This document shows positions 30,677-49,706 of a stretch of 64,000 nucleotides of DNA, piece after piece (within the stretch, counting starts at the first letter, position 1; every line of letters begins with the position of its first letter). The position numbers and the translations under genes were made by a program. Below the pieces are notes generated by a model, which was not told where the DNA came from, did not search any database, and saw only the letters and a list, made by a program, of their open reading frames with translations. The stretch is from Blattabacterium cuenoti (GTDB lineage Bacteria; Bacteroidota; Bacteroidia; Flavobacteriales; Blattabacteriaceae), in the NCBI RefSeq assembly GCF_014252275.1, contig NZ_CP059214.1:187906-251905 (forward strand). Direction: 5' to 3'.

Positions 30677-32362
30677 ATGAAAAACGTAAATTTTTTTATT
30701 GTTTTATTGTTTACTTTTTTTTCATCTGTCTTTTCTAAAGATTTAATCGTGAAAACGAAAACAAATACCCATAAGAATGGGATTAAAAAAAAAGAGAAGG
30801 AAGATGGTTATTTAATTAAAGTAGGAACTTCTGATATAAATTATTTTCCTACGGATTTATCTCCTGCAGTGAAAGATATTTTTCAAGGATTCTCTAATCA
30901 AAAAAATAATTTTATCATTCCAAAAATTTCTAACGTTGGATTAGGATATAAAAATAAACATTTAGGTTTTTTCTTGGATGTATCATCAGGAATGATAACT
31001 AATGATAGATGGAAAATCAAGAATGCAAATTTTTTAAAAATTAGTAATGGGATCCATGTTTATCCTTTTACTCATCCTTACAATATGATTGATCCCTATT
31101 TTAGATTAGGAGGTGCATTTCATAAATTTGATGGATATAATGGTAAAGAATATGTAATTTCTTCTACGAAATGTTTTATGACTGATAGAAATAAGTTTCT
31201 AGTATTGGATGGAGGTTTAGGAATTAATTTCTGGATTATTCCTAATATGGGATTAAACATTCAAAGTACTTATAATCATATTTTTGCAAGACAATCTAGA
31301 GATTATCTTGATTTTTGGAAACATAACATAGGATTGATTTTTAAATTTGGTAATACAATGAAAATCAATCGTTTAATAATAAAAAATGGAAAAAAAGGAA
31401 CGTCATTGATAAAAAAATATGTACAAACAAATTTGAAAATTAATCAAAAAAAATATCCTTTTTTTATTCCTATAGGTTCAATTTATGAAAAAATAAATCC
31501 TATAGAAAATCATTTATATATAGATCGTCATAAAACAAATCAATCCGATTCTATTCCTCAAAGGATTCCTCATCAATCCAAAAATACTTTCTATAATCTT
31601 AATCATGATTCTTACAATTTTACAAAATTGAAAAAACGAGAAATTATTTTTCCTAAAAAACGAAAAATGATTTGTAGTAAAAAAATTTATAGAATTGAAA
31701 GGATTGATTCCCTTTACAGAAATAAAGAAGATCAAAAAATTATTTCAAATAATGATAAAATCGAATCCATTTCAATCCATCAAAATCAAGGATCAGATAG
31801 GATAAGAGATCCTATACTATTCTATAATAATGATTTAGAAAAATGTCTGTTTCATAGAGAACTTACAAAGTTTAATCTCGGGTCTTCTTCGATTCCAGTA
31901 CAAAAGACCGAATCTGGAACACCACAAGTCCAAGGAACCGAGCACCCCTTGGTCGGAACTTCTTCGATTCCAGTACAAAAGACTGAATCTGGAACACCAC
32001 AAGTCCAAGGAACCGAGCACCCCTTGGTCGGAACTTCTTCGATTCCAGTACAAAAGACCGAATCTGGAACACAAGTCCAAGGAACCGAGCACCCCTTGGT
32101 CGGAACTTCTTCGATTCCAGTACAAAAGACCGAATCTGGAACACAAGTCCAAGGAAAAGGAAAAAAACCGTTAGGCTCCTCGAGGATCCAACAAAGAACA
32201 AAATCCGTACGAGGACGAGGAAAAGGAAAAAAACCGTTAGGCTCCTCGAGGATCCAACAAAGAACAAAATCCGTACGAGGACGAGGAAAAGGAAAAAAAC
32301 CGTTAGGCTCCTCGAGGATCCAACAAAGAACAAAATCCGTACGAGGACGAGGAAAAAGTTAA
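30677..32362 (+). CDS. Outer-membrane barrel protein with long repeat-bearing C-terminal tail
   Basis: 561 residues. A signal peptide (about 1-20, ending SVFSKD) and an OmpA-like beta-barrel (about 45-235, with VGLGYKNKHLGFFLDVSSG and a NPSYDP-like glycine/aromatic pattern) suggest an outer-membrane protein. The usual OmpA peptidoglycan-binding domain is not recognisable. Instead a polar linker (about 240-400) leads to a polar 25-residue repeat in four copies (about 403-492) and a very basic 22-residue repeat in three copies (493-558). Repeat DNA is about 45-51% G+C by my count, far above the rest. The exact function is unknown; the repeat tail would be periplasmic if the barrel is OmpA-like. 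Confidence 0.8.
   Translation: MKNVNFFIVLLFTFFSSVFSKDLIVKTKTNTHKNGIKKKEKEDGYLIKVGTSDINYFPTDLSPAVKDIFQGFSNQKNNFIIPKISNVGLGYKNKHLGFFLDVSSGMITNDRWKIKNANFLKISNGIHVYPFTHPYNMIDPYFRLGGAFHKFDGYNGKEYVISSTKCFMTDRNKFLVLDGGLGINFWIIPNMGLNIQSTYNHIFARQSRDYLDFWKHNIGLIFKFGNTMKINRLIIKNGKKGTSLIKKYVQTNLKINQKKYPFFIPIGSIYEKINPIENHLYIDRHKTNQSDSIPQRIPHQSKNTFYNLNHDSYNFTKLKKREIIFPKKRKMICSKKIYRIERIDSLYRNKEDQKIISNNDKIESISIHQNQGSDRIRDPILFYNNDLEKCLFHRELTKFNLGSSSIPVQKTESGTPQVQGTEHPLVGTSSIPVQKTESGTPQVQGTEHPLVGTSSIPVQKTESGTQVQGTEHPLVGTSSIPVQKTESGTQVQGKGKKPLGSSRIQQRTKSVRGRGKGKKPLGSSRIQQRTKSVRGRGKGKKPLGSSRIQQRTKSVRGRGKS
31884..32156 (+). repeat. Tandem repeat A, 75/75/72 bp, four copies
   Basis: Copies begin at 31884, 31959, 32034 and 32106; the last is partial. 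Units 1 and 2 differ by one silent base; units 3 and 4 lack one CCA codon (GTPQVQ becomes GTQVQ). The period is a multiple of three, so the reading frame is kept, and the antisense strand is also open. My base count gives about 51% G+C for a unit. Confidence 0.97.
32153..32350 (+). repeat. Tandem repeat B, 66 bp, three identical copies
   Basis: Three copies at 32153, 32219 and 32285, identical by eye, encoding 22 residues rich in Lys and Arg (core PLGSSRIQQRTKSVRG). They follow repeat A with no spacer and end 12 bases before the gene's stop. About 45% G+C by my count. The sequence resembles repeat A with small indels (PL..G.SS, Q.(K/R)T.S), which suggests a common origin. Confidence 0.97.
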
Positions 32363-36340: not shown

Positions 36341-37549
36341 ATGAGAAATGTGTTTTTTTATGTTTTATTAAGCAGTGTAATAACTTCTTTTTTGAGTATT
36401 TCTATATATAGAAACTACGAAAAAAAAGAAAAAAAATTCCTTCCATGGAATCCTGTATATGCATTTCAAAAATCACAAAATATTCCATTAAAAACTTCTT
36501 TATTTAGTCATAGTCATTTTTATTTTCCTGATTTTACAGAAATAGTCCAAAAAAATATTAATGCCGTTGTTAAAGTAAAAAATTATTCTAAAAGGAATAG
36601 GATCTTATCTCCATTTGATTTCTTTTTTGGTTTTCCCGATGATTTCAGTAGAAGAAAATGGGGGAAAAAACATGATATTTATGGATTTCATGGGTCAGGA
36701 GTGCTCATTTCATCTGATGGATATATTGTAACGAATCATCATGTGATTCATAACGCTGAAAGCATTGAAGTTATCCTTAACGATCAAAGAATATATCCTG
36801 CTCAACTCATAGGTTCAGACCCAAGTACAGATGTGGCACTTATCAAAATTCATGAAACAAATTTACCTTTTGTTGCTTTTCAAGATTCTAATCAAGTTCA
36901 AGTAGGAGAATGGGTAATTGCTATTGGTAATCCATTTGATTTAAACGCTACTGTTACTTCGGGAATTATTAGTGCAAAAAATAGAAACATAGGAATACTG
37001 AATGAAAAGGCTTCTCCTTCCTCATCTATCGAATCTTTTTTTCAAACGGATGCGGCCGTTAATCCTGGAAATAGTGGAGGCCCCTTATTAAATATGAATG
37101 GAAAACTTATTGGAATTAATACTGCAATCTCTTCTTCTTCCGGAAATTTTATAGGATATAGTTTCGCGGTCCCATCTAATTTGGTTTTGAAAGTAGTAAA
37201 AGATATAAAAACATACGGATCGGTACAACGTGCATTTTTAGGAGTTAAAGGAGGGGATATGAAAGATATTTACTCCTATCTTAGGAATAAAAATCAAACA
37301 ATATCAAAAAACTTCAATGTACAACAAGGATTTTTTATTGGAGAAGTGATTGATCATAGTAGTGCATATGATGCAGGACTGCAAACAGGAGATGTTATTA
37401 AACGTATTGATGGACATTTAATAAATAACTCCTCAGATCTTATTTTCATGATAGGGATGAAACATCCAGGAGATATCATCGTATTAGAAATTGTTCGAAA
37501 AAAAGAAATAAAATATTTGTCTGTAGTTTTAAAACGTATTAAAAAATAA
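36341..37549 (+). CDS. DegP/HtrA-family periplasmic serine protease
   Basis: Envelope quality-control protease. 402 residues, with an N-terminal membrane or signal segment (about 3-21). The trypsin-like domain has catalytic His134 in TNHHVIHNA, Asp in DPSTDVALIKI and Ser245 in GNSGGPLL. One PDZ domain follows (about 300-398, GFFIGEVIDHSSAYDAGLQTGD). Do-type DegP of Bacteroidota usually has two PDZ domains and ~470-500 residues, so this copy resembles DegS-type layout or has lost PDZ2. Confidence 0.93.
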   Translation: MRNVFFYVLLSSVITSFLSISIYRNYEKKEKKFLPWNPVYAFQKSQNIPLKTSLFSHSHFYFPDFTEIVQKNINAVVKVKNYSKRNRILSPFDFFFGFPDDFSRRKWGKKHDIYGFHGSGVLISSDGYIVTNHHVIHNAESIEVILNDQRIYPAQLIGSDPSTDVALIKIHETNLPFVAFQDSNQVQVGEWVIAIGNPFDLNATVTSGIISAKNRNIGILNEKASPSSSIESFFQTDAAVNPGNSGGPLLNMNGKLIGINTAISSSSGNFIGYSFAVPSNLVLKVVKDIKTYGSVQRAFLGVKGGDMKDIYSYLRNKNQTISKNFNVQQGFFIGEVIDHSSAYDAGLQTGDVIKRIDGHLINNSSDLIFMIGMKHPGDIIVLEIVRKKEIKYLSVVLKRIKK

Positions 37550-40049: not shown

Positions 40050-41102
40050 ATGATGAAGGAGGCTATGAACGATGGAAATGACATCATCATGAAATATGAA
40101 GAGGAAAGAATCATCCATGAATTATTATATAGATCATATTCTCTTGCTTTTTTATATCTATGTTTTTCTTTAGTTCTTATATCTCATTTATTATATCATC
40201 AATTTTTCGTAAAAAATAAGAAAATAATAAGAATCGTCCATAGAACCATACGATTGATCAAAAATCATCGTGAACAAGCAAAAGAAAATTTTTTTTGTGA
40301 AGGACATGCTATGTTGTTTATCTATGGAAAAAAATATAACATATTTGTTGATTTTCAATCAATTTCCAATGTAGTATTTTCAGATAATGTCAAGGAATTA
40401 TCTCGTTCATTATCCTGTTTATTTCATCAACCAAAAAGTATCATTTATAAACGACTTTGGAAAGAAAAAAAGAAAGGGAACAGGTATTTTTTTTTAGCAA
40501 AAGGTCTAGATTATAGATATTTTAAAACATTACAAACCCTTCCAGTTTTTCAAAATAAATTGATAAAAAAGGGATTGATCATACAAAAAAAAACATATGA
40601 AATTCCATGTTTAAAAAACAGTGGATTACATAAGGATTTTCCTATTCAAGATGAAAGAATACTCATAAAATTTTCGACACTATTTCATCGATATATGAAT
40701 GGGGAATATGGGAAAAAAATAGAAAAATGGATTATTTACAATATCCTATGGAAAGGATTACAGTGGAAAAATTTCATTATAAATTCAATCAATAAAACGT
40801 ATCCATCATATCCGAATACAATCCATTTATCTATAGAAGATGGAAAATATGATCATAATGATCATCTTCTATTTCGAGAATTGTTTATTGAGAAAACATA
40901 TCATGGAGAACACATTATTATACATCATGAAAAAAATTATCATAAAAACGTTCCTACAATTATTCATATAAGTAAAAAAGATATTTTTTTTCAAAAAAAT
41001 AAGAAAAAAAATATCTTCCCTTTATATCATATAGAATCTAATAAATTAGACCATCTAGGACATGTCTTTAATAAACAAGATGTTATCTATTTCAATGAAT
41101 AA
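40050..41102 (+). CDS. ftsI: FtsI (PBP3) remnant lacking the transpeptidase domain
   Basis: 350 residues in the ftsI position between ftsL and murE. One membrane segment (about 30-50) is followed by a region that resembles the pedestal domain of Bacteroidota FtsI (YKRLWKEKKKGNRYFFLAKGL, FKTLQTLPVF, GLIIQKKTYEIP, YMNGEYGKKIEKWI). The conserved R-G-x-I-x-D-x-x-G segment is degraded. The chain ends around the first strand of the transpeptidase domain; no SxxK, SxN or KTG motif exists here or in the 256 bases downstream. It cannot be a D,D-transpeptidase. Either a decaying gene or a structural leftover. Confidence 0.75.
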   Translation: MMKEAMNDGNDIIMKYEEERIIHELLYRSYSLAFLYLCFSLVLISHLLYHQFFVKNKKIIRIVHRTIRLIKNHREQAKENFFCEGHAMLFIYGKKYNIFVDFQSISNVVFSDNVKELSRSLSCLFHQPKSIIYKRLWKEKKKGNRYFFLAKGLDYRYFKTLQTLPVFQNKLIKKGLIIQKKTYEIPCLKNSGLHKDFPIQDERILIKFSTLFHRYMNGEYGKKIEKWIIYNILWKGLQWKNFIINSINKTYPSYPNTIHLSIEDGKYDHNDHLLFRELFIEKTYHGEHIIIHHEKNYHKNVPTIIHISKKDIFFQKNKKKNIFPLYHIESNKLDHLGHVFNKQDVIYFNE

Positions 41103-44024: not shown

Positions 44025-45379
44025 ATGAAAAAAGAATTAATAATAATATTAGGAGGAGGAGAAAGTGGAATTGGTGCTTCTCTTTTGGCCCTAAAAAATG
44101 GATTTAAAATATTTTTATCCGATTCCGGAAAAATTTCCAATAAATACAAAAAAATTTTGTATAAATATCAGATTCCTTTTGAAGAAATGGGGCATTCTGA
44201 AGATTTTATTCTAAAAAATGCTTTTCAAGTGATTAAAAGTCCAGGAATATCTAGAAATAATGCTTTTATCAAAAAAATTGATTCGTTAGGGATTCCTTTA
44301 GTATCGGAACTAGAATTTGGAAAAAGTTTTCTAAAAAATTCTTATATCATCAGTGTCACAGGAAGTAATGGTAAAACTACAACAAGTACGATAATATACA
44401 ATATCCTAAAAAGTGATAAAAAGTTTTGTGTAGGATTAGCGGGAAATATTGGAAGAAGTTTTTCTAAAGAATCTATAAAAAAAAAAGTTTTTATGTATTA
44501 GAAGTAAGTAGTTTTCAGTTGGATGACTGTTTTCATTTTCGTTCAAATATTGCCATAATGTTGAATATTACAAGAGATCATTTAAATAGATATAATAATA
44601 ACATAGAAAATTATGTAAATTCTAAATTTAGAATAGCTATTTTTCAACATAAAAACGATATATTGATATATAATTATGATGATCCTATTATTAGAAATGG
44701 ATTAAAAAAATTTTTGTTAAAATCTATATGCATTCCCTTTTCTATTAAAAAAGAGTTAAATTTTGGAGCATATTTAAAACAAGATAAAATATACATTCGT
44801 AATAAAAAACGTTTATCCAAATATTTGTTAAAAAATATTTCTTTATCAGGAGATCATAATGTATATAACATAATGGCATCGTTAATTGTATCTGATATTT
44901 TGAATGTACAAAGAAAATCTATTTGCTCTGTGATTCATCATATGACTGGACTTCCCCATCGAATGGAAAAATTTTTTCATATGAATGGAGTGTTGTTTAT
45001 TAATGATTCCAAATCAACCAATGTACATTCTGCTTGTTGTGCATTAAAAAGCTTAAATAATCCTATTATATGGATCGCAGGGGGAAAAGATAAGGGAAAT
45101 GACTATAAAGATTTAATTCCATTAGTGAGCAAAAAAGTTAAAGTGATGATTTGTTTAGGAACACATAATCATAATATTTACAATTTTTTTAAAAAAATTG
45201 TAAATATTATATTGGAAACAAATAGTATGAAACAAGCTGTAAGGATGGCATATAAATATGCTTCTCAAGGAGATAGTATATTATTATCTCCTTCATGTTC
45301 GAGTATGGATCTGTTTAAAGATTATAGAGAAAGAGGAAATGAGTTTAAAAAAGAAGTCAAACAACTTTTTTATGAGTAA
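44025..45379 (+). pseudogene. murD: MurD, D-glutamate ligase, interrupted by a frameshift at an A10 tract
   Basis: Two frames together give a full-length MurD (~451 residues). The first part (44025-44501) has the N-terminal Rossmann domain and P-loop VTGSNGKTTTST. At 44477-44486 a run of ten A (ATA-AAA-AAA-AAA) shifts the frame to a stop at 44499-44501. The second frame resumes at once with YVLEVSSFQLDD and runs through NITRDHLNRY, INDSKSTN, WIAGGKDKG and the end at 45379. One added A would restore the gene. MurD is essential for peptidoglycan, so transcriptional slippage or an assembly error is likelier than true loss. Confidence 0.85.
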
Positions 45380-49074: not shown

Positions 49075-49404
49075 ATGAACAAGAATAAATTATTATTTAT
49101 TTTTTCCTTGTATATCCTTTGCATGATATTTTTTTCGTTTTCTTCTGTAAAAAATCATCGAAATAGAAAAATTCAATCAATACATATTGATGTAGATTCC
49201 AAGGGTTATTGGTTAAATAAAAATCTTCTTGATAAGATTCTATTCCAAAAAATAGAAAAAATTGATAAAAAAATCGGTCAATTATGTATATTGGAAATGG
49301 AGAAAAAATTAAATAATGATCCATTTATAAAAAAAACTGATGTTTTTTTCAGTGTGGACGGAACACTACATATAAATATTTTTCACAAAAAACCTATTTT
49401 TTAA
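49075..49404 (+). CDS. ftsQ: Truncated FtsQ (POTRA part only)
   Basis: 109 residues in the ftsQ position between murC and ftsA. A membrane segment (about 7-23) is followed by a POTRA-like region ending in the typical DGTLHINIFHKKPIF. FtsQ is normally about 230-260 residues. The TAA at 49402-49404 falls inside the normal coding path: behind it the same frame continues with DKKYYCIRYKKK, which resembles the next FtsQ segment, before a further stop. So an in-frame nonsense change, followed by decay, is the likely cause. Confidence 0.8.
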   Translation: MNKNKLLFIFSLYILCMIFFSFSSVKNHRNRKIQSIHIDVDSKGYWLNKNLLDKILFQKIEKIDKKIGQLCILEMEKKLNNDPFIKKTDVFFSVDGTLHINIFHKKPIF

Positions 49405-49706
49405 GATAAAAAATATTATTGTATCAGATACAAAAAAAAATGGAAATTATTCCATTGTTCTTAACATAAAAGAACAATGTTTTTTGATAGTCAAAGACTG
49501 GATAATAAAGAAATTATTTATCACATAAATTCTTGTTAAATTTATGAAAAATTAATGCATACATGAGAAAAGAATTCGTTCGTTATAATTTCTTATAGCA
49601 TGAAAAAAAAAACAAAACAAAAAATACCTAAATATAATTAGGTCGATATCGATAATCGAAAAGGATCGATTTGCAATATAAAGAACAAATAGTCGAAAAA
49701 AAAAGT
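49405..49706. other. Eroded ftsQ 3' remnant and ftsA upstream region
   Basis: 302 bases without an intact gene. The first ~55 bases still read like FtsQ (DKKYYCIRYKKK in frame, then MEIIPLF in the -1 frame after an A9 run, compared with the family pattern YY.D..G.KMPLS). The rest shows nothing recognisable and presumably holds the ftsA promoter. Confidence 0.6.

Follow-up and report, generated by a model that had tools for sequence, protein, structure and literature searches.

In E. coli, the OmpA barrel alone is reported to keep the permeability barrier, and the barrel together with the wall-binding domain to give the envelope its stiffness (PMC11648852). Other outer-membrane proteins also link membrane and wall mechanically, among them OmpM of diderm Firmicutes, through a folded SLH domain (PMC10628300), and Lpp and OutB, through covalent links (PMC12274547). 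The protein described here is like them in its proposed mechanical link; however, their tether is a folded domain or a covalent lysine, whereas the one we propose is a disordered cationic tail. Proteins of insect endosymbionts generally vary more in the length of their domains and linkers (PMC4007534). Our searches on Blattabacterium OmpA, tandem repeats and peptidoglycan, and on lysine-rich ends of OmpA, recovered no report of such tails in the openly accessible literature, an absence that is weak evidence.

The closest relatives are TSP3-bearing OmpA/OprF-type orthologues from 38 Blattabacterium genomes and from free-living Flavobacteriales. One free-living orthologue (L059) contains a signal peptide, a barrel, TSP3 repeats and an OmpA domain, as do orthologues from the same order. 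The ancestral architecture was signal peptide, eight-strand barrel, linker, TSP3 repeats and OmpA peptidoglycan-binding domain. About 20 free-living orthologues of a further family (f6, L143-L163; KKAPAKKKATKKRK type) carry a conserved Lys/Ala/Pro-rich end of 15-20 residues after the intact OmpA domain, indicating that a basic end is not foreign to an OmpA-family protein.

We analysed a Blattabacterium genome assembled as a single contig of 561,052 bases (G000) and, within it, a 64-kb stretch that we call the window. An earlier note, made from the letters of the window alone, had described a gene for an outer-membrane protein that ends in a GC-rich tandem-repeat tail and has no recognisable OmpA domain. 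The gene lies between smpB and tatC, as in its orthologues, and its product matches those of other genus members with tblastn E values of 1e-27 to 1e-65. Like the TSP3-bearing orthologues it has a signal peptide, and its barrel is ~50-60% identical to theirs. Where those proteins have TSP3 motifs and an OmpA domain, it has two tandem arrays, the last of them basic (Table 1).

Table 1. Features of the OmpA-type gene and of two separate envelope genes, with positions in the 64-kb window
Feature	Position	Strand	Basis
Whole gene, OmpA/OprF-type outer-membrane protein without OmpA domain	30677..32362	+	ORF; 561 aa; orthologue in 48/49 genus genomes; fold match to OmpA/OprF barrels
Signal peptide, residues ~1-20 (MKNVNFFIVLLFTFFSSVFS), Sec-like	30677..30736	+	Read by eye from sequence
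Eight-strand beta-barrel, residues ~21-228	30737..31360	+	AlphaFold2 strands 43-225; Foldseek; weak PF13505
Disordered AT-rich linker, residues 229-403, without TSP3 motif	31361..31885	+	Low pLDDT; no Pfam match
Array A: 75/75/72 bp plus partial fourth copy, unit SSIPVQKTESGTPQVQGTEHPLVGT, near-neutral charge	31884..32156	+	Tandem Repeats Finder
Array B: 3.1 identical 66-bp copies, unit GKGKKPLGSSRIQQRTKSVRGR, strongly basic	32152..32356	+	Tandem Repeats Finder
HtrA/DegP-like protease, 402 aa, second PDZ domain gone; separate from OmpA-type gene	36341..37549	+	
FtsI remnant, N-terminal half only, transpeptidase domain gone; separate from OmpA-type gene	40050..41102	+	

Structure prediction agreed with the assignment to the outer membrane. 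The AlphaFold2 model, built from seven sequences with a mean pLDDT of 46 and weak outside the barrel, has barrel strands that end near residue 225 and a pLDDT below 50 from residue 228 to the C terminus. Foldseek matched the barrel to OmpA (9fzc, E 2.4e-7) and OprF (4rlc, TM 0.69 by target), with Ail and OmpX also among the matches, so that the protein has the eight-strand N-terminal barrel typical of OmpA/OprF-type proteins. When solved relatives of the barrel were sought by sequence, chance matches alone turned up, unlike in the fold search, and the Pfam match to PF13505 was weak and fell below the cut-off. Pfam searches found neither PF00691 nor, unlike in the orthologues, TSP_3 in the protein, and no PF00691 in the whole genome; the position of the OmpA domain in orthologues is occupied by array B. 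The gene therefore encodes an OmpA/OprF-type outer-membrane protein that has lost its ancestral OmpA domain and ends in two recently expanded arrays.

Both arrays are in frame within an open reading frame that ends at a normal stop, and the tail claimed earlier is real. Array A (period 75, 3.7 copies, 97% matches) scored 497 and array B (period 66, 3.1 copies, 100% matches) scored 410; the next independent tandem array in the window scored 108. In array A, copies one and two have 75 bp, and those that follow have 72 bp. Apart from one synonymous C/T change and the loss of one in-frame codon, copies do not differ, which supports the view that the arrays are young or homogenised, as the earlier note had supposed. 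The pooled units of both arrays are 48% G+C; among 1342 coding windows of equal size in neighbouring genes, none exceeds 46.8%. Most of this G+C comes from codon positions 1 and 2, reflecting Gly, Arg, Pro, Ser and Thr content; third-position G+C (0.36, reached in 5 of the 1342 windows) is above background too, as fits a young origin. The last ~70 residues are strongly basic, as had been noted: the final 69 contain 25 Lys or Arg and no Asp or Glu. Net charge per residue is −0.03 in array A and +0.37 in array B. The protein thus shares with the f6 orthologues, which belong to the same barrel family, a basic, Lys/Arg-rich, disordered C terminus in the periplasm. The f6 end, however, is a short KKAPAKKK-type tail that follows an intact domain, whereas here an unrelated, Arg/Gly-rich tandem array stands in the domain's place.

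We considered several origins for the arrays. Spread from another source was rejected, since no DNA or protein similar to the arrays was found elsewhere in G000, in the other 48 genus genomes, or in phages or plasmids. Derivation of array B from the basic end of an OmpA domain (SSRI..RG.G.KKG) was unsupported, as its score was reached by 53 of 500 shuffles. Opposite the arrays run two antisense ORFs (167 and 105 aa), as expected from stop-free repeat periods divisible by three.

To place the loss in the genus, we compared 49 Blattabacterium genomes, 48 of which contain an orthologue of the gene. The PF00691 OmpA domain is present in 38, once each and always in this orthologue. The remaining 11 (G000, G006, G009, G010, G011, G014, G015, G019, G023, G039 and G040) have no OmpA domain anywhere in the genome. 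Orthologues with a normal OmpA domain, part of what the earlier note said would refute its claim, do occur, in 38 of the 49 genomes, but the loss recurs independently, so the absence seen here is more than an isolated quirk. A tree built from a concatenation of ten proteins (3585 columns, with branch support and no outgroup root) places the OmpA-less genomes in at least four groups: G000 and G009; G010, G039, G011, G023 and G015; G019 and G040; and G006 and G014. G038 keeps its OmpA domain yet groups with G000 and G009. Assuming only that the domain cannot be regained, it was lost at least four times in the genus. Most OmpA-less strains have genomes of 511-595 kb; those of G019 and G040 are 622 kb.

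Comparison of the gene's 3′ end across these genomes went beyond the single-sequence view and revealed that unrelated basic tails arose convergently in the domain's place. Six of the 11 OmpA-less genomes (G000, G009, G010, G011, G014 and G039) encode long basic tails of unrelated sequence. The G009 protein (776 aa) ends in VRGRGR-type sequence and has one TSP3 motif left before its tail, showing that the tail stands where the OmpA domain stood. The others are of KPNKWGAKK type (G039), a 25-residue unit (G011; KGKGRKNNFSSIYKKRKNN), Asn/Lys/Arg-rich (G010) and of KKKTN type (G014). The G006 gene is partly masked and has a Lys-rich continuation in another frame, probably a seventh long basic tail. 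Three genomes (G019, G040 and G015) encode the barrel with a short end, and G023 has lost the gene; we rejected the idea that the G015 gene is a pseudogene, as its barrel-only ORF is intact. KSV(V)RGRGKG stretches are common to the G000 and G009 tails, which may descend from one ancestral basic tail, and the two genomes are sisters on one tree. The G011/G010/G039 tails and the G014/G006 tails are separate origins. In at least three lineages, therefore, unrelated long basic tails, most of them repetitive, took the place of the OmpA domain.

Across the basic tails, the constant is charge and not sequence. Net charge per residue is +0.30 to +0.51 in the tails of the six proteins, whereas their own linkers range from −0.01 to +0.07 and those of orthologues that keep the domain from −0.24 to −0.01. 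Among tandem arrays, all 16 in linkers were at or below +0.03 and all seven in tails at or above +0.37, with three arrays reassigned by eye (two G009 arrays that our script had sorted as linker were moved to tail, and one G006 array sorted as C-terminal was moved to linker). In all six tails, acidic residues were scarcer than in shuffles of the DNA that encodes the tail, with z from −1.4 to −7.1, values that are inflated by the repeat copying of one unit. Lys plus Arg in the G011 and G010 tails was within 2 sd of the shuffles. The G009 tail has 61% G+C at second positions and 7% at third positions, indicating that Arg and Gly persist against AT pressure. N:S counts among repeat copies were near the neutral expectation, with a few acidic gains in G039 and G011; purifying selection on the repeat sequence was unsupported.

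We also examined genes for wall synthesis. MurG is encoded in 49 of 49 genus genomes. Of these genomes, 43 have three PF00905 transpeptidases; the other six (G000, G010, G011, G015, G023 and G039) have two. In the five of these six other than G000, FtsI is gone and the mraW-murE gap has shrunk to 338-481 bp. The second HtrA PDZ domain is absent in exactly the six genomes without the FtsI transpeptidase domain, all of which are OmpA-less. On the tree, these losses form two events, one in G000 and one in the G015 clade, both in OmpA-less lineages. Two events do not allow a test, but they are consistent with a weakened constraint on the remodelling of the wall. We rejected the idea that the domain disappeared through a loss of peptidoglycan synthesis, because every genome keeps MurG and at least two transpeptidases, and only the FtsI/HtrA PDZ2 erosion co-occurs.

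One explanation, which we hold tentatively and at slightly under even confidence, is that the OmpA domain was lost under relaxed envelope constraint and that a fast-changing cationic tail replaced it, probably as a non-specific electrostatic anchor in the periplasm. As wall remodelling erodes, as the loss of the FtsI transpeptidase and HtrA PDZ2 in two OmpA-less lineages suggests, a specific, diaminopimelate-binding anchor would become dispensable, with the barrel usually kept. Tandem slippage would supply new C termini, and those rich in Lys and Arg would persist by keeping the barrel loosely attached to an anionic surface on the far side of the periplasm, either carboxylate-rich peptidoglycan, the first candidate, or anionic inner-membrane phospholipids. 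Because binding would depend on net charge and reach and not on sequence, the sequence could turn over rapidly. The earlier note had offered peptidoglycan, nucleic acid or host material as ligands of the tail. Peptidoglycan is possible; nucleic acid and host material seem unlikely, because, in the established OmpA topology, the segment that follows an eight-strand barrel with a Sec signal would be periplasmic. The contrast in charge between positions and the Arg/Gly codons kept against AT pressure favour a function for the tail. Counting against an electrostatic anchor, the barrels with short ends in three genomes and the loss of the gene in a fourth imply that an anchor is dispensable. We are more doubtful of the wider proposal that selection has repeatedly swapped a folded peptidoglycan-binding domain for a disordered, sequence-independent cationic anchor as wall remodelling erodes.

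The main rival to the electrostatic anchor, and nearly as likely, is non-adaptive decay, in which a dispensable OmpA domain was deleted, slippage repeats grew at the free C terminus and the tail does nothing in particular. Richness in Lys and Arg would then reflect A-rich codons (AAA and AGA) and the exclusion of hydrophobic, aggregation-prone sequence. Decay explains better than an anchor both the mixed outcomes of domain loss (long tail, short end or gene loss) and the near-neutral N:S among copies. Slippage is also common in this gene, where linker repeats expand even with the domain kept, to ~37 copies in G037, and AT-rich DNA alone gives Lys-rich translations: the G010, G011 and G014 tails are 14-19% G+C, with Lys plus Arg 0.7 to 2.5 sd above shuffles. 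It accounts less well for linker repeats that are neutral or acidic when C-terminal repeats of the same gene are all basic, for the Arg/Gly-rich G000 and G009 tails, which run against AT pressure, and for the basic end that follows an intact domain in ~20 free-living relatives. A role other than anchoring appears improbable, as the tail sits in the position of the wall-binding domain and, in the generally known OmpA topology, does not face the host. Such roles could include neutralising the charge of LPS or phospholipids in the outer membrane's inner leaflet, binding periplasmic proteins, or guarding against host cationic peptides or lysozymes; the measured charge, disorder and position do not discriminate among anionic partners, and among the products that bacteriocytes of the host express are peptidoglycan-recognition proteins and lysozyme-like factors (PMC11050582). 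We consider it very unlikely that the arrays, or their copy number, are assembly artefacts. Although assembly can easily collapse or expand short tandem arrays whose copies are nearly identical, these keep the frame and a normal stop, their copies carry the two small differences described above, nothing similar was found elsewhere in the genome, in phages or in plasmids, and the assemblies of relatives have different but analogous tails at the same place.

With at least four losses of the sole OmpA domain and three kinds of outcome, the genus offers replicate natural experiments in how diderm cells, as their genomes shrink, either retain or abandon the connection of outer membrane to wall. These lineages may be exchanging a folded anchor for a simple charged one. 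Should the basic tails function, bulk charge can replace a folded binding domain; should they have no function, they clearly exemplify the non-adaptive growth of repeats, with the positional bias in charge still needing explanation.

We also made several observations on neighbouring and related sequences. The G037 (L048) linker contains ~37 copies of a 60-bp unit in an intact 1182-aa ORF with an OmpA domain, and copies were identical in 36 of 36 compared, over the 57 bp checked. In the window, murD (44025-45379) is divided into two ORFs by a frameshift at an A-run (44477-44486). In 23 of the 49 genomes murD is divided in the same way, at about residue 157, and in G046 the frame is restored by a small downstream deletion. 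We rejected the split as a sign of lost wall synthesis because the same poly-A split occurs in 23 genomes, which suggests long-standing tolerance via transcriptional slippage and not a dead gene. In G003, G012, G022, G033 and G046, the first ~32 model positions of murG form a separate short piece, perhaps through another frameshift. The murC-ftsA interval (window 49075-49670) holds a frame of ~109 codons that ends in a stop, in an ftsQ-like position, and looks broken or truncated.
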